From Pedobacter arcticus A12 (GTDB taxonomy: Bacteria > Bacteroidota > Bacteroidia > Sphingobacteriales > Sphingobacteriaceae): a stretch of 64,000 nucleotides of DNA. The stretch lies in NCBI RefSeq assembly GCF_000302595.1, contig NZ_JH947125.1, forward strand, positions 642,299 through 706,298. The letters are read 5' to 3'. A model generated the notes under the pieces. The model saw only the letters and a list, made by a program, of their open reading frames with translations. It searched no databases and was not told the DNA's origin. Both the position numbers and the translations under genes were made by a program. Numbering within the stretch: position 1 is the stretch's first letter; each line of letters opens with the position of its first letter. Shown piece after piece: positions 53,653 to 64,000 of this stretch.

Positions 53653-53684
53653 TTTGATTTATAATATTTAATACCATATTTTTG
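53653..53684 (+). promoter_or_regulatory. Promoter of susCD
   Basis: TTTG (53653-53656), a 20-nt spacer and TATTTTTG (53677-53684) fit the Bacteroidota consensus. The last three bases of the -7 box are the first three of an operator palindrome. Confidence 0.75.
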
Positions 53685-53708
53685 GTAAACCAATTATTGG
53701 TAAACCAA
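53682..53708 (+). promoter_or_regulatory. Tandem operators TTGGTAAACCAA at susCD
   Basis: Two identical copies, 53682-53693 and 53697-53708, are 15 bp apart centre to centre. The first overlaps the -7 box, the second covers the expected transcription start. Bound repressor would block RNA polymerase. The same pair occurs at 62216-62242 and a variant set at 62544-62598. Confidence 0.75.
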
Positions 53709-53730
53709 TTATTTACTAAAATTATTTTTT

Positions 53731-56700
53731 ATGAAGTCAATGTACAGCATATGTTTGTTGTGGGCAGCGTTCTTTGTTTTTGGAACAATTTCCGCACAAG
53801 CGCAGACGTTAATTAGCGGGATAGTAAAAGATATAAGCGGGGAATCCTTACCCGGCGTATCTGTTGCCGTTAAAGGGAAACCCGGTGGAACCGTTACGGG
53901 AGCCGATGGCAGTTTTAAAATTAATGCGATGTTAAAGGATGTACTAGAAGTAAAATATCTAGGATTCGAAACCAAGCAAATTACCGTAACAAATAGTTCT
54001 TTGTTAAACATTACGCTAAGTCAATCAAGTAGCGCTTTAGATGAAGTAGTGGTTATCGGTTACGGAACCCAGCGAAAATCGTCGCTAACCGGAGCGGTGG
54101 CAAAACTTAATAATGATAATCTTAACCAAATTCCAGTTTCTAGAGCAGACCAAGCATTGGCTGGTAAATTAGCTGGTGTACAGGTTATCAATACAGATGC
54201 TACAGCTGGTGCAGCGCCAGTAATCAAAGTTAGAGGGTCGGCGTCAATTACTGCGGGAACAACACCTTTGTATGTTGTAGATGGTTACCCTATACCAGGC
54301 GATCTTTCAACCATCGATATGAATAATGTAGAAAGCATAGAGGTGTTAAAAGATGCGGCATCTGCAGCAATTTACGGGTCTAGAGGTGCTAACGGGGTAG
54401 TGTTGGTTACCACGAAAACTGGTAAAGCTGGCGATACAAAATTTAGCTTTAATAACAGTACAGGTACTAAAAGTGTTTACCGCAAATTAGACTTTCTTAC
54501 CTTGACCGAATGGGCTAACCATGTTAAAGAGGTAAACAACGGTGTTTTGAGCCCAGAGATTATTGCGGCTCAAAAATATGACGTTGAAACAGACCCGCAG
54601 GATATCGCTTTCCAAACTGGTTTTTTTCAAAACACCCAGTTTAGCGTAAGTGGCGGAAGCGATAAAGTAAAGTTTTATGTTTCTGGAGAAGGTTTGTATG
54701 ATAAAGGCGTAATCAGAACTAATGATTACAAGCGTTACGGCGGACAAGTAAATCTTAATATTACACCAAATAAGAAATGGGAAATTGGGGTTAATTTAAC
54801 ACCATCATATACCATACAAAGAGCACCAACTTTTAAAATACATGATGTTATCCGCTCTGTTGCCCTTTGGTTGCCATTATATGCAACACAAACTATTGCC
54901 GACGGAACAGGAATTCCCTTAGGATATATCGTTCATCAAAGAGATTTTGATCCTTCAACAAATACCAAGTATACTGGTGTAAATCTGTCGGCAACTGCAA
55001 ATAATACGGGGTATACAAATTTGGAAGGTGTTTCAAATATGATTTATATAACAAAAACCTTAGCCAATGCTAATGTGAAATATAACATTACAAAAGACTT
55101 ATCTGTAAAAGTTTCTGGTGGCGTTTATTTCAGCAATGCTAAGAACGAGTTTTTTCAAAAATCTTGGGCAACAAAAGACCCGTTAATACAAGGTATTACA
55201 GCAGCAAGGGCGTCAACTAAAGCAACTTTGGCTAATAACCAAAGTGTTGATTGGCTTTCAGAAAATCTGTTAAACTACAATAAAACTATTGGCAAAAGCA
55301 ACTTTAATGCTATTGCAGGCTTTACAGCACAATCTAACTTAGCTAGTTACAGTAATTCTGCAGCGACTAATTTTTTAACGGATAATATTCCAACACTAAA
55401 TGCAGGTACTTTAAACGCGGTAAGTTCATCCAAAGAAAGAAACAATTTAGCATCGGCACTTTTTAGGGTGAATTATAGCTATGATGATAAATACTTGGCC
55501 TCTTTTGCTTCTCGCTGGGACGGAAGTTCTCGTTTTGGTGCTGGTAACCGTTGGGGGTTTTTCCCTTCTGCGTCTTTAGGTTGGAGGGTTAGCCAAGAAG
55601 ATTTTTGGTCGCCAGATAATTTTGTTAACGATTTAAAAGTTAGGGCAAGTTATGGCGCAACCGGAAACAATAATATTGGTAATTACAGAGCTTTTGCCAA
55701 TGTAAACACCGTTGGTGCTATTTTAGATGGCAGCGGAACCACCTTGGGTTTCAATTCTGATTTATACGATAACCCTAATTTAGGTTGGGAGAAAAACTAT
55801 AGTTTTAACGGAGGCGTAGATTTTGGGTTTCTTAAAAACAAGTTCACTTTATCAATTGATGCTTATAAATCAACTACTAAAGATTTATTGCTTTACCTAG
55901 CTATTCCTTCCGTTACCGGTAGTACAGGTGTTTGGGGAAATACTGGAGAGGTACAGAACCAAGGTTTAGAATATGAGCTTACTGCAAATATTCTCAGCCA
56001 AAAGAACTTCAGATGGAACGTTTCTACCAACGGATCTACTAATAAAAATACCGTCAAAGATTTAGGAAACAGTAATCTTTTAATTAATGTAGGTGATCCA
56101 AAAAGACCAAATTATTTTTTGAGTCAGGTGGGCAGTCCTTTAGTTCAGTTTTATGGTTTTGAGTATGAAAGTGATATTCCTGTGAGCGGAAACTTCTGGC
56201 CGATTAATGTACATTCTGATAAAGCTATTGTAAAGGATAGAGATAATAATGGTGTAATTAACGATTTGGACCGTGTAGTTTTGGGTCAGCCAACTCCAAA
56301 GTTTATTTGGGGATTAACCAACAGTTTCGAAATTAAAAGATTTGATGTAAGCTTTGTGCTTCAAGGGTCACATGGTGCAAGTGTTTTTAACGCCGATCCA
56401 AACTATTACGAAACGCAATTTGCAGCAACAGGAACCAACGCGTACCTAAATTTGGCTCCTGCTTTAAGGGCGAAAGTGAAGTATAAAACGGAAACTAGTT
56501 ACGCTATTGAAGATGCATCTTACATCGCATTAAGAAGTTTAAATGTTGGGTATAAGATCCCTGCTAAGTTCTTAGGTAAAAACAATAGTAACTATTTACG
56601 CGTTTACGCATCTGCCTATAATTTATGGTACCATTTCGCAAGTGGTTATAGCAGCTATAACCCAGAAGGTATAAATGAATATACTGATGATCCTTTGAGA

Positions 56701-56769
56701 AATGGTTACCAGAGAGGTGCAGCTCCAATAACAAGGAACATCACTTTCGGAATTAACGCTAATTTTTAA
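53731..56769 (+). CDS. SusC/RagA-type TonB-linked outer-membrane transporter
   Basis: A 1012-residue outer-membrane porin for oligosaccharide import. Signal peptide 1-25 (ISAQAQ). Residues about 27-105 are the carboxypeptidase-like regulatory domain (LISGIVKDISGESLPGVSVA). The plug (about 110-230) has DEVVVIGYGTQRKSSLTGAV and DAASAAIYGSRGANGVVLVT, a hallmark of SusC. The rest is a 22-strand barrel ending ITFGINANF with terminal Phe. It is paired with susD, 15 nt downstream, and sits at the head of the lyase locus under the tandem operators. The substrate is inferred from the lyases to be a uronic-acid polysaccharide. Confidence 0.95.
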   Translation: MKSMYSICLLWAAFFVFGTISAQAQTLISGIVKDISGESLPGVSVAVKGKPGGTVTGADGSFKINAMLKDVLEVKYLGFETKQITVTNSSLLNITLSQSSSALDEVVVIGYGTQRKSSLTGAVAKLNNDNLNQIPVSRADQALAGKLAGVQVINTDATAGAAPVIKVRGSASITAGTTPLYVVDGYPIPGDLSTIDMNNVESIEVLKDAASAAIYGSRGANGVVLVTTKTGKAGDTKFSFNNSTGTKSVYRKLDFLTLTEWANHVKEVNNGVLSPEIIAAQKYDVETDPQDIAFQTGFFQNTQFSVSGGSDKVKFYVSGEGLYDKGVIRTNDYKRYGGQVNLNITPNKKWEIGVNLTPSYTIQRAPTFKIHDVIRSVALWLPLYATQTIADGTGIPLGYIVHQRDFDPSTNTKYTGVNLSATANNTGYTNLEGVSNMIYITKTLANANVKYNITKDLSVKVSGGVYFSNAKNEFFQKSWATKDPLIQGITAARASTKATLANNQSVDWLSENLLNYNKTIGKSNFNAIAGFTAQSNLASYSNSAATNFLTDNIPTLNAGTLNAVSSSKERNNLASALFRVNYSYDDKYLASFASRWDGSSRFGAGNRWGFFPSASLGWRVSQEDFWSPDNFVNDLKVRASYGATGNNNIGNYRAFANVNTVGAILDGSGTTLGFNSDLYDNPNLGWEKNYSFNGGVDFGFLKNKFTLSIDAYKSTTKDLLLYLAIPSVTGSTGVWGNTGEVQNQGLEYELTANILSQKNFRWNVSTNGSTNKNTVKDLGNSNLLINVGDPKRPNYFLSQVGSPLVQFYGFEYESDIPVSGNFWPINVHSDKAIVKDRDNNGVINDLDRVVLGQPTPKFIWGLTNSFEIKRFDVSFVLQGSHGASVFNADPNYYETQFAATGTNAYLNLAPALRAKVKYKTETSYAIEDASYIALRSLNVGYKIPAKFLGKNNSNYLRVYASAYNLWYHFASGYSSYNPEGINEYTDDPLRNGYQRGAAPITRNITFGINANF

Positions 56770-56784
56770 ATAAAACTCAATCAC

Positions 56785-58188
56785 ATGAAAAAAATTATCA
56801 TAGCACTTCTGGCGGTTTCTAGCTTAGCCAGTTGCGAAAAGTTTTTAGATCAAAAGCCTATTTCATCATTAACAGAAAATACATTTTACAGAAACACCGA
56901 CGAGGTTGAAACTGGAGTTATTGCATGTTATGATGGTTTGCAAAAAGTTTACGATGCCGAATACCAGCTTACGGAAATTAGAGCCGACAATACTTCTGGA
57001 TATTCTTTAGAAGGAGACTGGGGCTCCATTAAATTTTTTAGAGAATCACCTGCCAATTTCTTTCTCCTAGATTTTTGGCAACGCTCTTACAATACCATTG
57101 CCCGTTGTAACTTGGTTTTAAAGTACCTGGATAATGTTACAGATCCTGTTAAAAAGAGTGCTTTTGAAGGTGAGGTGAAATTTATACGTTCTTTAATGTA
57201 TTTCAATTTGGTGAGACTTTATGGTGATGTACCTTTAATTACCAAATCTATTGCGTTTGACGATCAGGCAAGCTTTGTAAAAACCACCAAAGAAGCAATT
57301 TACACACAAATTAAAATTGATTTGTTGCTAGCAGTAAGTAATTTAAATGTGAACGCTTCGGCTACTGTTCCATCTGCAAGAGCAAATAAGCAAGCTGCAG
57401 AAGCGTTACTAGCTAAAGTTTACATCACTTTGAAAGATTTTGGAAGCGCAAAGCCATTGTTGGAGGCAATTGTAGGAACAAACTTAAAAGGAATTGCGCC
57501 CTATGGTTTAAATTCTTCATACGCTGCAATATTTAGTACCGCAACAGAAATGAGCAAAGAAATAATTTTTGCAGTGCGTTATAAAGCAAGTTCAAGTAGC
57601 GAAGGAAATTCTTTTTCTTATGAATATAGCAATAGCGGAAACGCCAGAAATGTAAAAGCTTCTGCCGAATACCAAGCATTGTTTGAATCTGGAGATGTTA
57701 GAAAAGCAGTAACATTTACTACCACGGGCGCTAATATTGGGCTGGCTGCTAAATTTATTGATGCAGCAGCTCCGCAAAGAGATGCCGGAAATGATTTCCC
57801 GGTTATCCGATTTGCAGATGTTTTATTAATGTATGCAGAGGTGTTAAATGAACTTGGTACCGTACCAACTGTAACCACACTTGCACCCTTAAACGAAGTG
57901 AGGACAAGAGCAAACGTTGCTAATTACCTTCCTGCCGTGGTTACCACTAAAGAGCAAGCTCGAGATTTGATTTATAAGGAAAGACAATTGGAGTTTGGCT
58001 TTGAAAACCAACGCTGGTATGATTTGCAACGTATGGATCAGACCAAAGCAATTGCAACTTTAAACGCATATCTAACGGCAACTGGCAATAGCATCACCGT
58101 TAAACCATATCAGTTTGTTTATCCATTACCACAAACAGAAATTAATATAAGCAAAGGCAAACTGGTTCAAAACCCGGATTATCTTTAG
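56785..58188 (+). CDS. SusD/RagB-type glycan-binding lipoprotein
   Basis: A 467-residue surface lipoprotein that forms the lid of the SusC transporter. The signal ends at SSLASC (Cys17). The start EKFLDQKPISSLTENTFYRN is typical, followed by TPR-like helices (FIRSLMYFNLVRLYGDVPLI) and the C-terminal block LIYKERQLEFGFENQRWYDL, diagnostic of RagB/SusD. It binds the polysaccharide fragments before uptake. It lies 15 nt after susC, with a terminator behind. Confidence 0.95.
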   Translation: MKKIIIALLAVSSLASCEKFLDQKPISSLTENTFYRNTDEVETGVIACYDGLQKVYDAEYQLTEIRADNTSGYSLEGDWGSIKFFRESPANFFLLDFWQRSYNTIARCNLVLKYLDNVTDPVKKSAFEGEVKFIRSLMYFNLVRLYGDVPLITKSIAFDDQASFVKTTKEAIYTQIKIDLLLAVSNLNVNASATVPSARANKQAAEALLAKVYITLKDFGSAKPLLEAIVGTNLKGIAPYGLNSSYAAIFSTATEMSKEIIFAVRYKASSSSEGNSFSYEYSNSGNARNVKASAEYQALFESGDVRKAVTFTTTGANIGLAAKFIDAAAPQRDAGNDFPVIRFADVLLMYAEVLNELGTVPTVTTLAPLNEVRTRANVANYLPAVVTTKEQARDLIYKERQLEFGFENQRWYDLQRMDQTKAIATLNAYLTATGNSITVKPYQFVYPLPQTEINISKGKLVQNPDYL

Positions 58189-58211
58189 TACAACTATTTA
58201 ATTTGTTTGAT

Positions 58212-58247
58212 AAAAGCAGTTTCAGCAGAAGTTGAAACTGCTTTTTT
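58212..58247 (+). terminator. Terminator of susCD
   Basis: AAAAGCAGTTTCA and TGAAACTGCTTTT are exact complements (13 bp) around an eight-base loop, followed by more T. It marks the end of the susCD transcript. Confidence 0.92.
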
Positions 58248-58296
58248 GTTTATAATCAACATACCTACACTAAGTTTGAGGTGTTCGTCCAAAAGT

Positions 58297-58668
58297 TCAA
58301 TTTTTAATTTCCTTGATAAAAGTTTCAGAATTGTCCGTAAACCCATTTGTGATATACATGTTTCCAAGTACGACGCTATCTTTCTCAACTTTTAAAATTG
58401 GGTGTTGCGTTTCTTCTGTCGAATTGGGTAATCTTATGAAAAGATTTCCTCCATTAATTCGGTATAAATATTCTTCATATCCATAGTGTTTTCTTACCAA
58501 ATTTTTACCGTTTATAAAGTCTAATGTGTCCGCTTTATCAAGGCTAATCCACAGCCCGGCTCTGTAATGTGTGTTGTAAAAATCATTCGCCCTGTCGTTT
58601 TCTTTTTTGCATGAAAAAACACAAATCATAAAGGTTAGTAAAATAAAAGTAATCAGAGTTTTCTTCAT
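58297..58668 (-). CDS. Small lipoprotein of unknown function
   Basis: A 123-residue lipoprotein with signal MKKTLITFILLTFMICVFSC (Cys20). The mature part has no family that I recognise; it looks beta-rich and calycin- or lipocalin-like in length (ADTLDFINGKN, YLYRINGGNLFIRLPNS). It is opposite in direction to susCD and lies between susD and the PL6 gene. It shows no operator palindrome upstream, so it may not belong to the regulon. Confidence 0.7.
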   Translation of the reverse strand: MKKTLITFILLTFMICVFSCKKENDRANDFYNTHYRAGLWISLDKADTLDFINGKNLVRKHYGYEEYLYRINGGNLFIRLPNSTEETQHPILKVEKDSVVLGNMYITNGFTDNSETFIKEIKN

Positions 58669-58892
58669 GTGAATAATGATTAGGTTGATAATCTGAATAC
58701 GTTAAATTTGTATTCTTTGCTACACGCAGCAAAGTGGTGATTAAAGGTTAATCCCTAATAGGTAAAACGTTCTATGTACGCACTTGATTTCTGCACTAAT
58801 TCTTGCTATGTCGCGGTGTGAATTGTTTGATAAAAGCACCATCTTTCGATAATTTAACAACAGTTTTAGAAGTTAAACGCTACGGCTTTTTA

Positions 58893-58924
58893 ACAAAAAA
58901 GGGAAACTTTTTACAGCTTCCCTT
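58893..58924 (-). terminator. Terminator of the PL6 gene
   Basis: On the minus strand AAGGGAAGCT and AGTTTCCCTT form a 10-bp stem with one G-T pair, then TTTTTT. It lies 24 nt after the PL6 stop. Confidence 0.85.
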
Positions 58925-58947
58925 CAATTTTGCACTAAAATAAAAAC

Positions 58948-61900
58948 TTATTGCTTCATTATTTTATGCACCATTGTTCTTTTGCCATTTTGGAATAAAT
59001 GCAAGTAATAAATGCCGGTTGTCAAACCTGTTAAATCAAATTGATAGCTGTTTGTAGCGCTCGCTTTTTGAACTTTTATTACCGAACCTAGACTGTTTGT
59101 CAGCGTCCATTTATCATTTGAGGTTAAATTCTCTTTAAGTTCTATATTGACAATTGAGGTAGTTGGATTTGGGTAAACGCTTGCAGAAAATGATTTCTTT
59201 ATCGCAACAATGGGAGAATATCCAAAAGAGCCATCTGTATCAACTATTTTTAAGCGATAGTAATTATTGCCGGTAGCAGCATTTTGATGGATATAGGAAT
59301 AATTAACCAAACTGTTGCTCTCTTGTTGTACATCAACTTTACCAATTTTTAAAAAATTAGAATTTTCCTTTTTCCACTCCACCTCATAGTGATTAAAGTT
59401 AAGCTGAGTACTTACCTGCCATACAATCTTCATGTCGTTAAGTTGCGGATAAGCATTAAAACTGATCAATTTAACCGGTAAAACTCCCTCATAGTTGTAG
59501 CTGTACGAAAAGCCTTCAGCATTTGGACCTGTATAGGTTTCTGTTAAAGCGCTTGTATTTATGGTTTTTGCACCGCTATATTCATACGCACCAATATCCT
59601 TTAATCCGGTTCTGGTCTGTTGCTCAAAATCTCCGTTTACATAAGTGAAAACACCTGTTGCCGCATCTATTGCGGGGCTGTTATCTGCTAAACGGAAAAT
59701 TTGTGCGGCTGGGTTTAATTCACAATCTGGCCCTGTACATGCTGGTTTAATTAATTTAGGATTAGTGTTGTTTATTTCCGTATTACTTGCAGAAATTCCA
59801 ATACTGGCTGTGGCTGTTGGGTACATCATGTTGTTTGCAAAACTTACTCCTGCTAACGAAGTGCCGCTGTAAGATTTAACAAGAGGGCTTGTATTGCCTA
59901 CCACTATATTATTTGCCAATAAAACATTTACAGGCGCTTTAGGGTAACTACCTCCATTGTCAAAACCTATTTCAATATTGGATTTGTTGTTCACTAAAGT
60001 GTTAAAACTTATCTCCACATTTTCCGGAATATTGTGGCTAGAGTTGCTGGTGGTGGAGTTTAAAACATCTCCATTGGTAATAACAAGAGCTGCATCCCAT
60101 TTTTCGCCAGTTAATCCTTCAAAATAATTATTGAAAACTTTATGATCTAGGCCGTAAACCCGGATTCCGCCACAGCCAATTGTACTTGTTACTCCATTAT
60201 TTGTAAATGTACCCGTTTTGCCTTCCCCAAAAAAGTAGTTTCCTTCAGCAGTATTTCGTACACCTTGTCTAAAAGATAAAGTCCCTAAACATCTTCTAAA
60301 AGTATTGAAACGGACAATATTATCGCATGATTTTATGGAAACAATTTCTGGATCGCCGTCACAATCTTCAAATAAATTATGCTCAATTACGGTGTAACCG
60401 CTACTTCTGGTCAAAGTACTAACGCCCACACGAATGCTTTCCTTTTCATTGGCAACCCTTGGACCATTGTTTTTAAAAATATTATAGCTAATGGTGTCAT
60501 GCTGAGACTGATGGTCTATGTTTCCATCTAAAACAATGAATTTACCTGCTTCTGTTTTGCCGTCGAATATATTATAATCAATTTTATTATGCCCAGATTT
60601 TAGCGGTTCTGTACTGCCAAAGGTATCACCAATGTAAATCCAATTACAGGAAGCATTTTCCACAATATTAAATTTATTTCTGGTAATGCGTACATGTGTA
60701 CTGTTCTGAAACTTAATTCCAGTACCAATATTTGCACTTTGGAAAGAAAAACCCTGAATAGTTACATAACTAATGCTCTGTAAAACCAATGCTGTAGCTC
60801 CGTTTAAAATAGCACCGCCTTCATTTTTAGCTTTAATAACAATCGGTTTCAGCATACAGCCACCTCTGTCAATTGTTAAACTACTAAGGTTATAAGTGCC
60901 ATCCTCCACAACAATAACGTCTCCTGGATTCATTGATGCTAAAGCATTTTTAAACTCAGTAACGGTGGAAACGTTCCTTGTTACAGAAGGCGTATTATTG
61001 ATCGCTATATCTGCACCAATATTTACATCGCCATTTACGGTAAGGGTTTTTGAGGTCTGGTTGCCAGATAAATCTCCCGTCCAGTTGTTAAATTGGTAAC
61101 ATGCCTCGTAATTGATTTTGGCCGTTACCACAGTACCTTGATAATATTTGCCACCGGTTGGCGCTGGTGTTAGAGTAATGGAGCCGTTTGCAGGCTGTGT
61201 GATGTTTACATCAAAAGCAGCGGGCGGGTTTAGCGGATCAATACTTACGGTTGCACCAAATGCTGTGTTGGCTGAAAGCGTAAAAGTTTTTATGAGTTCG
61301 GTTCCTGATAAATCGCCTGTCCATCCCTCATTTTGGTAACCCGCCGGTAAAGTTAAAGTTGCAGTAACTTCATCGTTTAAATTATAACTGCTTTTTACTG
61401 GCGACAGAGAAATAGTTCCAAAAGCTGGTTGTGTCACCGTAATTGTTCTGGCTGTTGAAGAAGCTCCAAAATCAATACCTGTTATTGCGGTAGTGCCAAC
61501 ATACAAATCATCAATGTAAGTTTCTGTTGTGCCCGTAGAAGTGTCATCACCATGGTTAATTCTAATAGCGTGAAATTCTTTTCTGTCAGCAACTCTAGTT
61601 CCGCTTAATGTTGGCGTATAGGACTCTCTTAAACCAAAAGCAGTTGTACTTCCACCTGATACTGTGGGTTTAACCACCCCATCTAACGCAACGTAGTACT
61701 TCTCTGTCGCAAAATCTACTTTTACAGAAACTCTTACCCAAGTATTAGAAGTCCAAGTACCAATTTGGACAGCACTTGAACCGTTATAGGCTCTAATTTT
61801 ATTATCCGTGGTAAAATCTATTACAAATATTCTTTTGGCACTTGCTCCAAATAGGTCATAAGCATTTATAGCAAATCCTTTTGTGGTATAAGCAACTGGT

Positions 61901-62199
61901 TTTACCCATAAATCGGTGTAAAATTCGGTGTGTAGTCCAGGTATACTTCCAGAATAACCGATGTAATTAGCTAAAAGAGCAGTGCCAGACGCACTAAATT
62001 TAGCAGATTGAGTACCTGATTTTGAAAACGTATTTGAGACACTGCCATTACCTGTAGTTACCGTCCAGCTATTTTGGCTAGCCAAATTTCCAATAATATA
62101 GGAAGTAATTTCAAAGGAGGTATTTATTGCTGTTTGACTTCTGGCACCTAGCATAAAAAATATTACGCAGGCTAGCGATAATAGTAGATTTTTTTTCAT
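58948..62199 (-). CDS. Multidomain PL6 polysaccharide lyase with T9SS tail
   Basis: A 1083-residue secreted protein. Signal peptide 1-21; residues about 22-245 are a jelly-roll module (concanavalin-like); two copies of a bacterial beta repeat follow (TVTQPAFGTISLSP and NITQPANGSITLTP, each ending in NEGWTGDLSG/FNNWTGDLSG-type segments). From about 400 to 870 is a right-handed beta-helix of family PL6. The catalytic pair is Lys623 (EIVSIKS) and Arg644 (LSFRQG), 21 residues apart as Lys250 and Arg271 in chondroitinase B. The residue after Arg is Gln where PL6 usually has His. The last 75 residues are a T9SS sorting domain (SVYPNPTTSIVNIEL). It likely cleaves alginate outside the cell. Tandem operators lie just upstream. 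Confidence 0.9.
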   Translation of the reverse strand: MKKNLLLSLACVIFFMLGARSQTAINTSFEITSYIIGNLASQNSWTVTTGNGSVSNTFSKSGTQSAKFSASGTALLANYIGYSGSIPGLHTEFYTDLWVKPVAYTTKGFAINAYDLFGASAKRIFVIDFTTDNKIRAYNGSSAVQIGTWTSNTWVRVSVKVDFATEKYYVALDGVVKPTVSGGSTTAFGLRESYTPTLSGTRVADRKEFHAIRINHGDDTSTGTTETYIDDLYVGTTAITGIDFGASSTARTITVTQPAFGTISLSPVKSSYNLNDEVTATLTLPAGYQNEGWTGDLSGTELIKTFTLSANTAFGATVSIDPLNPPAAFDVNITQPANGSITLTPAPTGGKYYQGTVVTAKINYEACYQFNNWTGDLSGNQTSKTLTVNGDVNIGADIAINNTPSVTRNVSTVTEFKNALASMNPGDVIVVEDGTYNLSSLTIDRGGCMLKPIVIKAKNEGGAILNGATALVLQSISYVTIQGFSFQSANIGTGIKFQNSTHVRITRNKFNIVENASCNWIYIGDTFGSTEPLKSGHNKIDYNIFDGKTEAGKFIVLDGNIDHQSQHDTISYNIFKNNGPRVANEKESIRVGVSTLTRSSGYTVIEHNLFEDCDGDPEIVSIKSCDNIVRFNTFRRCLGTLSFRQGVRNTAEGNYFFGEGKTGTFTNNGVTSTIGCGGIRVYGLDHKVFNNYFEGLTGEKWDAALVITNGDVLNSTTSNSSHNIPENVEISFNTLVNNKSNIEIGFDNGGSYPKAPVNVLLANNIVVGNTSPLVKSYSGTSLAGVSFANNMMYPTATASIGISASNTEINNTNPKLIKPACTGPDCELNPAAQIFRLADNSPAIDAATGVFTYVNGDFEQQTRTGLKDIGAYEYSGAKTINTSALTETYTGPNAEGFSYSYNYEGVLPVKLISFNAYPQLNDMKIVWQVSTQLNFNHYEVEWKKENSNFLKIGKVDVQQESNSLVNYSYIHQNAATGNNYYRLKIVDTDGSFGYSPIVAIKKSFSASVYPNPTTSIVNIELKENLTSNDKWTLTNSLGSVIKVQKASATNSYQFDLTGLTTGIYYLHLFQNGKRTMVHKIMKQ

Positions 62200-62215
62200 T
62201 TAACACGTTGTTTAA

Positions 62216-62242
62216 TTGGTTTACCAAAAATTGGTTTACCAA
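62216..62242 (-). promoter_or_regulatory. Tandem operators of the PL6 gene
   Basis: On the minus strand two TTGGTAAACCAA copies (62231-62242 and 62216-62227) are 15 bp apart, exactly as at susC. The -7 box reads TCTTTTTG (one mismatch to TAnnTTTG) and runs into the first operator. The rest of the 420-nt gap to the next gene holds only the divergent promoter. Confidence 0.75.
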
Positions 62243-62542
62243 AAAGACGCATTTATCTTGATATTTTAAAGAAATTAGGAAACTAAATTTTTGGTAACTA
62301 AGACGTTAGCGGGGTTAATCAATTTGAAAGAGCTTCCAGTTAAGTTTAAAAAGTCAGATTTATTGACACGTCACGTGTTTTTATAGCTAAAAAACTGACT
62401 TTAAAACTCTTTTGACCGCTTTTTAGGTAGCGTTTAATATTCTCCTCTATACATTTAAGAATATACCCTATGCTGAGTTAGTGCTTAGCGTAAATTGGTG
62501 TGCACCAAACGTTTTTCTTGTAAAAAGATTTAAACGAATTTA

Positions 62543-62598
62543 TTTGGTTAACCAGATTATATCATTACATTTGGTTAACCAATAAAATGGTTGACCAA
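62543..62598 (+). promoter_or_regulatory. Promoter and operators of the jelly-roll lyase gene
   Basis: TTTG (62543-62546), a 19-nt spacer and TACATTTG (62566-62573) are a perfect promoter. Operators: TTGGTTAACCAG (62544-62555) over the -33 box, the perfect palindrome TTGGTTAACCAA (62571-62582) over the -7 box, and ATGGTTGACCAA (62587-62598) over the transcription start. Confidence 0.75.
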
Positions 62599-62619: not shown

Positions 62620-63516
62620 ATGAAAACAACAATACCTGTTTTGGTTATGCTATTAATTAGTAGCCTTTCGTGTAGTAAAAAAACAAGCAAGGAGGATTAT
62701 GTTTCTCCTATTGTTAAAGTTGAAAATCCAATTGTTCCAGTTGAACCAGAAAAAACTAGCGGAGTTACGTTATCTGCTGACGGGCTCACCAATACTTATA
62801 CTTTAATAAATAAATATTTTGGTGGCACTGGCGATGTTATAGAAACCCCAGATTGTGCACATTCTCCGGGTGCGCCACATATTACTCAGATTTATGATGA
62901 GCTTTTGAAAAAGTATGTTTTTGCTTTTCAAATTCATGTAAGTCCTGATAATGATCGCTGTTTGCCTGCTACTGATAGGCAACGTAACGAGATCAAGACT
63001 TATGATAAATCTCCAGACTCGCTATTGGCATCCTTAAATGAAACGGTTAGATACAGTTGGAAATTTAAACTTGATAAAGATTTTAAACCTTCTCCAAACT
63101 TTACCCATATCCATCAAATAAAAGCTTTAGACGGCGATGATGATTTGCCTTTGATCACCTTTACAGCAAGGTATAAATCATCTGGTAATAAATTGGAGGT
63201 TATCCATACTGGCGGAACAGGAACGACCTCTTTAAAATATATAGCCAGTGTGCCACTTTCTGATTTTATGGGAGAATGGGTTGAAGTAAAAGAGGAAGTT
63301 AGTTTTTCTTTCGATGGAAAATATCAGGTTTTGATTAAGCGAATTTCTGACGGGAAAACACTTTTAGATTTAACCGTTAACAATATAGATCTATGGCGTG
63401 ACGCTACAACCTTATGCCGTCCAAAATGGGGGATATATAGGAGTTTATTGTCTCCAGAATATATACGAGATGAACAAATTAGGTTCAACGATTTTAACAT
63501 AACTGAAATTAAATAG
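62620..63516 (+). CDS. Jelly-roll polysaccharide lyase-like lipoprotein
   Basis: About 298 residues with a lipoprotein signal (VLVMLLISSLSC). The mature domain has RNEIKT, THIHQIKALDG and RPKWGIYRSL with conserved YIRDEQIRFNDFNI at the end; these are the spacing and look of jelly-roll lyases, close to the heparin-lyase-I-like group (PF14099), where His and Tyr act on uronic acids. A PL7 or PL20 assignment cannot be excluded. An in-frame ATG at 62587 would place the start inside the operator, so ATG 62620 is chosen. It probably degrades oligouronates at the cell surface together with the PL6 protein. Confidence 0.75.
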   Translation: MKTTIPVLVMLLISSLSCSKKTSKEDYVSPIVKVENPIVPVEPEKTSGVTLSADGLTNTYTLINKYFGGTGDVIETPDCAHSPGAPHITQIYDELLKKYVFAFQIHVSPDNDRCLPATDRQRNEIKTYDKSPDSLLASLNETVRYSWKFKLDKDFKPSPNFTHIHQIKALDGDDDLPLITFTARYKSSGNKLEVIHTGGTGTTSLKYIASVPLSDFMGEWVEVKEEVSFSFDGKYQVLIKRISDGKTLLDLTVNNIDLWRDATTLCRPKWGIYRSLLSPEYIRDEQIRFNDFNITEIK

Positions 63517-63521
63517 ATAAT

Positions 63522-64000
63522 ATGATCAAGCAAACTTTATTAGGTATCTGCCTTTTGGCTTCAACATCAGTTTTAGCACAAACTAGTCCTTTCAATTATG
63601 GTTTTGGGGATGCTAAGGCTTCATTCGCTCCAAATCCTGGTGCTTCTTCCACCAAGTTTTTGCTTAGGATAATGGGGTCGGTAAAAACAATTAAACCAGT
63701 TGTTAGGATACGTACTGCTTCAGACGGTTCGGGCGAGTTTAATTTGGTAACCGATGGAGCAAGTTTTATAAACGGTGCAGGATTAGAAGTAATTGCGGGA
63801 ACTACCACCAGCAAGCTTTCTATGTATGACTTGGAAATGAAAAAAACTACCAAAACGAGTTTCGATATCAAATTTGATGAAAGTAAGACTGGACAATGGA
63901 TTTTTGCTAATGGCAACTCTGCAAGTGAGGAGGATGTTTTCCAAGGAAACTCAAGTGTCAAAGAAACCAATACCGAGATTTTTGCGGGCTTACGTTGGGT
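63522..64000 (+). CDS. Secreted protein of unknown function, 5' part
   Basis: An open frame from ATG 63522 to the right edge (159 residues seen). The signal peptide is MIKQTLLGICLLASTSVLAQ. The following part is beta-rich and low in charge (YGFGDAKASFAPNPGASSTK, GEFNLVTDGASFINGAGLEV), like jelly-roll modules at the N-terminus of T9SS-exported enzymes; the catalytic part would be beyond the edge. It starts five bases after the lyase gene and is likely co-transcribed, so a role in the same polysaccharide pathway is expected. Confidence 0.8.
   Translation, partial: MIKQTLLGICLLASTSVLAQTSPFNYGFGDAKASFAPNPGASSTKFLLRIMGSVKTIKPVVRIRTASDGSGEFNLVTDGASFINGAGLEVIAGTTTSKLSMYDLEMKKTTKTSFDIKFDESKTGQWIFANGNSASEEDVFQGNSSVKETNTEIFAGLRW

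Follow-up and report, generated by a model that had tools for sequence, protein, structure and literature searches.

Which protein acts on the paired palindromes that lie upstream of polysaccharide lyase genes in Pedobacter arcticus A12? We considered this question for a 64,000-nt stretch of the genome (hereafter the window; C1:642299-706298 in a genome of 4.23 Mb). An earlier reading of the same letters, here called the original prediction, had reported seven palindromes at three promoters and attributed them to a uronate-sensing repressor encoded elsewhere. The site layout, gene linkage, and conservation described below make it very probable that an autoregulated GntR/FCD repressor of the FadR group, whose gene (C1:711463-712203) belongs to the same alginate locus, uses the palindromes as operators.

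Palindromes in the window and in the genome

Exact copies of TTGGTWWACCAA begin at 53682, 53697, 62216, 62231, and 62571, and sites with one and two mismatches begin at 62544 and 62587, respectively. All seven positions had been predicted correctly, as had the 15-bp spacing between the centers of the susC and PL6 pairs; the site at 62571, previously called a variant form, is really an exact match. The window holds five exact copies where 0.10 are expected and nine matches to TGGTNNACCA where 0.65 are expected, and none of 100 shuffled sequences contained at least five of the former or at least nine of the latter. Two of the nine TGGTNNACCA matches (23349 and 23436) are outside the noted arrays. 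When a matrix was trained on 70 sites located upstream of the regulator in related species, with the P. arcticus genome left out, the seven sites scored 14.7-21.7 bits and the rest of the window reached at most 13.1 bits. As had been claimed, therefore, no sites accompany the genes for the esterase, GH18, and the small lipoprotein.

Genome-wide, there are 14 exact copies of the palindrome, compared with 6 for a reversed control. Nine of these matches are intergenic and fall within C1:695980-723556, and each of the remaining five is inside an open reading frame (ORF). Tandems, defined as two TGGTNNACCA matches with 3-9 bp between them, are present at five places, all of them in this locus, and are absent from the control. 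Two of these arrays (C1:711418/711434 and C1:723530/723545) are past the window edge, and the earlier count of three promoters was therefore an artifact of that edge. The matrix scan predicts 11 sites over the five promoter regions, with two or three per region. Chance palindromes in AT-rich DNA are ruled out by the shuffle counts together with the genome-wide tandem control. Likewise, the idea of a wide regulon is unsupported, because the five exact sites outside the locus are all in ORFs. The matches are few and show no spread over unrelated genes, and the confinement of tandems to one locus favors the single regulon that had been proposed.

A GntR/FCD regulator in the alginate locus

An interval of 17 bp separates the array at C1:711418 from the ATG of a gene encoding a 246-aa GntR+FCD protein, 5.2 kb beyond the right edge of the window. 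The original prediction had advised looking for GntR/FadR genes near other matches. The type of regulator was anticipated correctly, as judged from its two domains, but the gene is in the same locus, behind its own tandem pair, rather than elsewhere. An N-terminal GntR winged helix-turn-helix (PF00392, 66.1 bits) is joined to a C-terminal FCD domain (PF07729, 86.4 bits). R43, R53, and R57, along with the FCD residues D154, H158, H203, and H225, are invariant in 51 aligned sequences. We take the three arginines to align with the DNA-contact arginines of FadR, and the four FCD residues presumably form the metal site. For a relative with 85% identity (L049), the AlphaFold model (mean pLDDT 79.7) has PDB matches to FCD regulators; its linker is loose, superposition of the whole chain is poor (TM 0.39-0.50 by query length among the 50 matches listed), and the model was used for domain assignment alone.

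The best NCBIfam matches of the protein are NanR, LldR, PdhR, UxuR, and ExuR. NanR is the top match by score (130.2 bits, with a cut-off of 260), and UxuR (83.4 vs 442) and ExuR (76.2 vs 396) are among the others. Because all these scores are far below their cut-offs, the protein belongs to the FadR group yet to none of the five named subfamilies. The resemblance to UxuR and ExuR that had been noted thus extends to FadR-group kinship and not to membership in either subfamily. TGGTNNACCA fits the palindromic TKGT/ACMA operator of the FadR group, which has 2-3 nt between GT and AC; sections of PMC4494728 give this consensus and describe a 2-nt center for UxuR sites. The AT center had also been used to argue against LacI sites. 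This argument is weak, since the centers of orthologous operators vary: many Pedobacter sites have AA, TT, or TA, and those elsewhere often have CA, TG, or CG.

The locus is an alginate polysaccharide utilization locus (PUL) with lyases of families PL6, PL7, and PL17, a KdgF-like protein, a major facilitator superfamily (MFS) transporter, and a short-chain dehydrogenase/reductase (SDR). This content supports the expectation that genes for the use of uronate polymers are under the sites. Gene spacing suggests five likely transcription units, and there are sites at each: susC1-susD1; the PL6 gene; the PF14099 lyase gene and those following it through an acetylesterase (SASA); gntR-PL17-KdgF-like cupin-esterase-PL6-MFS-SDR; and susC2-susD2 with PL6, PL7, GH2, PF05426, GH88, and PL6. 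The acetylesterases suggest that acetylated (bacterial) alginate is a substrate.

Distribution of the regulator and the palindromes

In a survey of 201 Sphingobacteriaceae genomes, P. arcticus included, the regulator (E 1e-40 or better) is present in 18 and a 15/16-bp tandem is present in 18. The two occur together in 16 genomes, the regulator alone in two, the tandem alone in two, and neither in 181 (Fisher p 1e-19, uncorrected for relatedness). Both genomes with only the regulator carry a 27-bp site pair. In both genomes with only the tandem, it is located inside ORFs, at about the control rate (control matches occur in 3 of 201 genomes). Paired sites are close upstream of the gene in 17 of the 18 regulator loci of relatives; the exception (L042) belongs to a genome in which a PL6 gene on a different contig has a tandem. 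Relatives of PL6 likewise have tandems ahead of them in G026, G105, and G110, on a contig other than that of the regulator, and in G006, where gntR is 5 kb from the PL6 relative; in G108 the tandem is ahead of a susC2 relative some 650 kb away. Tandems are also listed at G121:C3:613036 and at a few other places.

For a view of the phylum, we read the best 80 of 183 related loci plus that of P. arcticus (from Pedobacter, Sphingobacterium, Niastella, Saprospiraceae, Fulvivirga, and others). TGGTNNACCA occurs no more than 400 bp upstream of the regulator in 75 of these 81 loci. Among 66 successive site pairs upstream of regulators, the spacing is 15 bp in 27 and 16 bp in 25. A draw of 395 phylum genomes contained 12, besides P. 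arcticus, with the regulator at E 1e-50 or better, and in 11 of these the palindrome lies at most 250 bp upstream of the match. Nine of the 12 form a group (f4) whose gene order is like that of flavobacterial alginate operons, with gntR followed by MFS and SDR genes in all nine and preceded by susC-susD in seven. The f4 regulators are 44-47% identical to the P. arcticus protein, and eight of the nine have the palindrome upstream. Paired sites are present in seven of the nine (six at susC and one at PL17), with a spacing of 13 bp in all eight pairs. Two copies of the regulator exist in Arcticibacter svalbardensis (L074), each with its own tandem pair, and in a Ferruginibacter metagenome-assembled genome (L086), each with a palindrome upstream.

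Overlap of promoters and probable operators

Bacteroidota promoters have TTTG near -33 and TAnnTTTG near -7. The final three bases of TAnnTTTG are the initial three of the operator TTGGTNNACCAA. From the loci read, we built a set of 121 promoter regions, of which 115 have a site and six do not; seven arrays whose nearest gene was unlabeled, two arrays with no gene in reach, and the P. arcticus gntR promoter were left out. TAnnTTTG is found at one exact offset to the first operator in 77 of the 115 regions, compared with six at the next-best offset and 15 in an opposite-strand control. If any site of the cluster is allowed, 81 of 115 regions have a fused -7 box, vs 15 of 115 on the opposite strand. 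The fusion is seen in 53 of 61 Sphingobacteriaceae-type regions, 3 of 6 Chitinophagaceae-type regions (L084-L090), 3 of 4 from P. arcticus, and 7 of 7 from f4. The P. arcticus gntR promoter is fused as well (TATATTTG), bringing that genome to four of five. A TTTG is positioned 17-20 bp upstream of the fused box in 60 of the 81 cases (19 bp in 36), whereas a control distance of 7-10 bp gives 0 of 81.

Site pairs spaced by 27 bp, which include the PF14099 promoter of the window, occur in eight loci with four distinct sequences (some of the eight are the same species from two collections), and in every one both promoter boxes are inside operators. This does not hold for the three 30-bp pairs and the single 26-bp pair. 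Although the counts include related species, which are not independent, four unrelated promoters of one genome share the same fusion. Elsewhere in the P. arcticus genome there are two further fused single sites, C3:914687 (in an ORF) and C6:74482, vs three in the control. The latter (L178:1501), a single fused TATCTTTGGTAAACCA, is followed after about 50 bp by an ORF that appears sulfatase-like by eye, and may be due to chance.

We tentatively propose, as a possibility that falls somewhat short of even odds, that a fused promoter-operator is used across Bacteroidota alginate PULs. The -7 box TAnnTTTG (at some promoters also the -33 TTTG, giving the 27-bp spacing) would double as the beginning of the palindrome, and the other face would be sealed by a second one, shifted in phase by about half a turn. 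If this is true, neither promoter nor operator could drift without harm to the other, a constraint that would account for the persistence of the layout at unrelated genes and in distant families, and alginate regulons could be predicted from raw sequence by layout alone. The spacing rule, the phylum-wide conservation, and the promoter fusion were not found in the literature searched; queries with motif strings returned no match on the topic, as judged from titles and the starts of abstracts. TAnnTTTG promoters have been predicted in a Flavobacterium alginate cluster, and operator overlap is unmentioned in the relevant parts of that source (PMC4306948).

Features of the window

Table 1. Coordinates of genes, predicted operators, and candidate promoter boxes in the window
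Feature	Position	Strand	Basis or domains
susC1 candidate -33 box TTTG, 20 bp before TATTTTTG	53653..53656	+	sequence
susC1 candidate -7 box TATTTTTG (TAnnTTTG), final three bases form the start of operator 1	53677..53684	+	sequence
susC1 operator 1, TTGGTAAACCAA	53682..53693	.	motif match, matrix
susC1 operator 2, 15 bp downstream of operator 1	53697..53708	.	motif match, matrix
SusC-like TonB-dependent receptor (susC1), regulon gene	53731..56769	+	Plug, CarbopepD_reg_2
SusD-like protein, same operon as susC1	56785..58188	+	SusD_RagB
PL6-type lyase with type IX secretion system (T9SS) tail, regulon gene	58948..62199	-	Chondroitinas_B, Por_Secre_tail
PL6 operator, gene-proximal	62216..62227	.	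motif match, matrix
PL6 operator covering the -7 box	62231..62242	.	motif match, matrix
PL6 imperfect -7 box TCTTTTTG, one mismatch	62240..62247	-	sequence
PF14099 candidate -33 box TTTG, overlaps operator 62544-62555	62543..62546	+	sequence
PF14099 lyase operator on the -33 box, TTGGTTAACCAG	62544..62555	.	motif match, matrix
PF14099 candidate -7 box TACATTTG, 19 bp after TTTG, overlaps operator 62571-62582	62566..62573	+	sequence
PF14099 lyase operator on the -7 box, TTGGTTAACCAA	62571..62582	.	motif match, matrix
PF14099 lyase downstream operator, ATGGTTGACCAA, 16 bp past the previous one	62587..62598	.	motif match, matrix
PF14099 polysaccharide lyase, regulon gene	62620..63516	+	Pfam; start inferred from sequence
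Following gene in this likely operon, 271 aa, truncated at the window edge	63522..63998	+	no Pfam match

The ATG at 62620 is the preferred probable start of the PF14099 lyase, because the mechanical start at 62587 falls inside an operator. Upstream of this promoter array, TTGGTGTGCACCAA (62495-62508) is a palindrome with a gap of 4 nt, not 2. Past the window, a hybrid two-component system (HTCS) gene (L016:6261-10340, C1:719260-723339) is located between the SDR gene and susC2; elsewhere, an HTCS gene follows the SDR gene in L049 and adjoins susC2 in G040 (L171).

Alternative explanations and a possible mechanism

Two FCD regulators were found in the genome, and the sites might be bound by the second (C4:264690), which is encoded far from the locus and would in that respect be nearer to the original prediction. 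A 2-nt center is compatible with FadR-group sites in general, as in the UxuR examples given in PMC4494728. However, the palindrome upstream of this gene is ATTATGTTATACATAAT (L128:1055-1071), which is unlike the PUL operator, TGGTNNACCA is absent from the surrounding 3.4 kb, and the distribution of the sites over genomes follows that of the PUL regulator, all of which make this explanation very improbable. We give equally little credence to the HTCS of the locus, or to a LacI- or CRP-type protein, as the factor that binds. The HTCS gene does directly precede susC2, but the same susC2 arrays exist in 10 Pedobacter-type loci where an SDR gene, not an HTCS gene, is ahead of the array, and arrays also mark four further promoters of this locus and, in 75 of 81 loci, the region ahead of gntR. 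Least credible of all is the notion that the paired palindromes are RNA hairpins of 5' leaders and not DNA sites. The PF14099 leader does have a striking folding score (z -3.96, with 0 of 200 shuffles as good), but ordinary values (z -1.04 and -1.52) were obtained for the two other leaders, and the palindrome unit is kept while the spacing shifts among 13, 15, 16, and 27 bp. As a separate matter, ATTATGTTATACATAAT upstream of the second FCD gene perhaps marks a second regulon.

In addition to the folding of the PF14099 leader, several observations weigh against operators of the PUL-encoded GntR/FCD repressor or against their fusion with promoters. Six loci lack a site upstream of the regulator (L075, L083, L084, L085, L087, and L089). 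In the Niastella loci among them (L084, L085, and L087) the array is instead before susC2, and gntR seems to be within the susC2 operon, based on the gene order seen for L084; the absences at L075, L083, and L089 are unexplained. The HTCS could also govern susC2, which may be under joint HTCS and GntR control. The stretches around two 2-keto-3-deoxy-6-phosphogluconate (KDPG) aldolase genes, one beside a gene resembling that for 2-keto-3-deoxygluconate (KDG) kinase (named by eye), are free of sites, and the alginate pathway is thus predicted not to be wholly inside the regulon. With regard to promoters, just 15 of 37 Saprospiraceae/Cytophagales regions are fused, the PL6 -7 box is imperfect, and the gntR -33 box is TTTT. 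Moreover, RNA-seq in Flavobacterium johnsoniae did not reveal the -33 motif (PMC7366714).

Control by the PUL-encoded GntR/FCD protein could operate as follows. At most arrays one operator overlaps the -7 box (TTTG-N19/20-TAnnTTTGGTNNACCAA) and a second is 15-16 bp further on. This distance corresponds to 1.4-1.5 helical turns, and two dimers would then occupy nearly opposite faces of the DNA. When alginate is absent, RNA polymerase would be excluded by bound dimers lying over the -7 box and the start region. The repressed units would be susC1/D1; PL6; the PF14099 lyase operon; gntR-PL17-kdgF-esterase-PL6-MFS-SDR; and susC2/D2-PL6-PL7. Breakdown of alginate oligomers would yield a uronate intermediate that binds the FCD domain, and KDG or a near product is our guess for this ligand. 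The dimers would then leave and the locus would be induced, gntR included. The anatomy of the site over gntR suggests autoregulation.

Comparison with known systems

Operators have been defined, to our knowledge, for few regulators of Bacteroidota polysaccharide loci. In the present case the regulator, the operator, the spacing rule, and the promoter overlap are legible in the sequence and recur in several families. Alginate regulons, including unlinked genes such as those for PL6, could be listed in the same direct manner. The closest parallel is AusR of Zobellia galactanivorans, a GntR-family repressor of the alginate system that Dudek and coworkers are said to have described in 2020 in NAR (doi 10.1093/nar/gkaa533). 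Parts of several sources state that AusR represses most alginate genes from operators in one, two, or three copies and that intermediates relieve this repression (PMC7874173, PMC8286568, PMC8073546). Similarly, the P. arcticus GntR+FCD protein is encoded inside an alginate PUL, together with PL17, PL7, PL6, KdgF-like, MFS, and SDR genes, and its predicted sites number two or three per promoter, compared with one to three copies for AusR (PMC7874173, in part). The systems differ in that P. arcticus belongs to another bacterial family and its locus has PF14099, SASA, and HTCS genes. The spacing of 15-16 bp also differs from the 13 bp of group f4, whose alginate operon is flavobacterium-like.

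More distant parallels exist within the FadR group. NanR of Escherichia coli is likewise an FCD repressor, and part of PMC8012715 describes three dimers on adjacent repeats about half a turn apart. In contrast, NanR binds GGTATA as direct repeats and responds to N-acetylneuraminate, and the P. arcticus protein is below the NanR cut-off. UxuR and ExuR share the FadR group, and UxuR sites share the 2-nt center (PMC4494728, in part), whereas the P. arcticus regulator scores far under both cut-offs and is located among alginate lyase genes. The system described here is therefore a control system of an already known, AusR-like kind with an unusually clear site layout, and it extends this circuit from a marine flavobacterium to Sphingobacteriaceae and their relatives.

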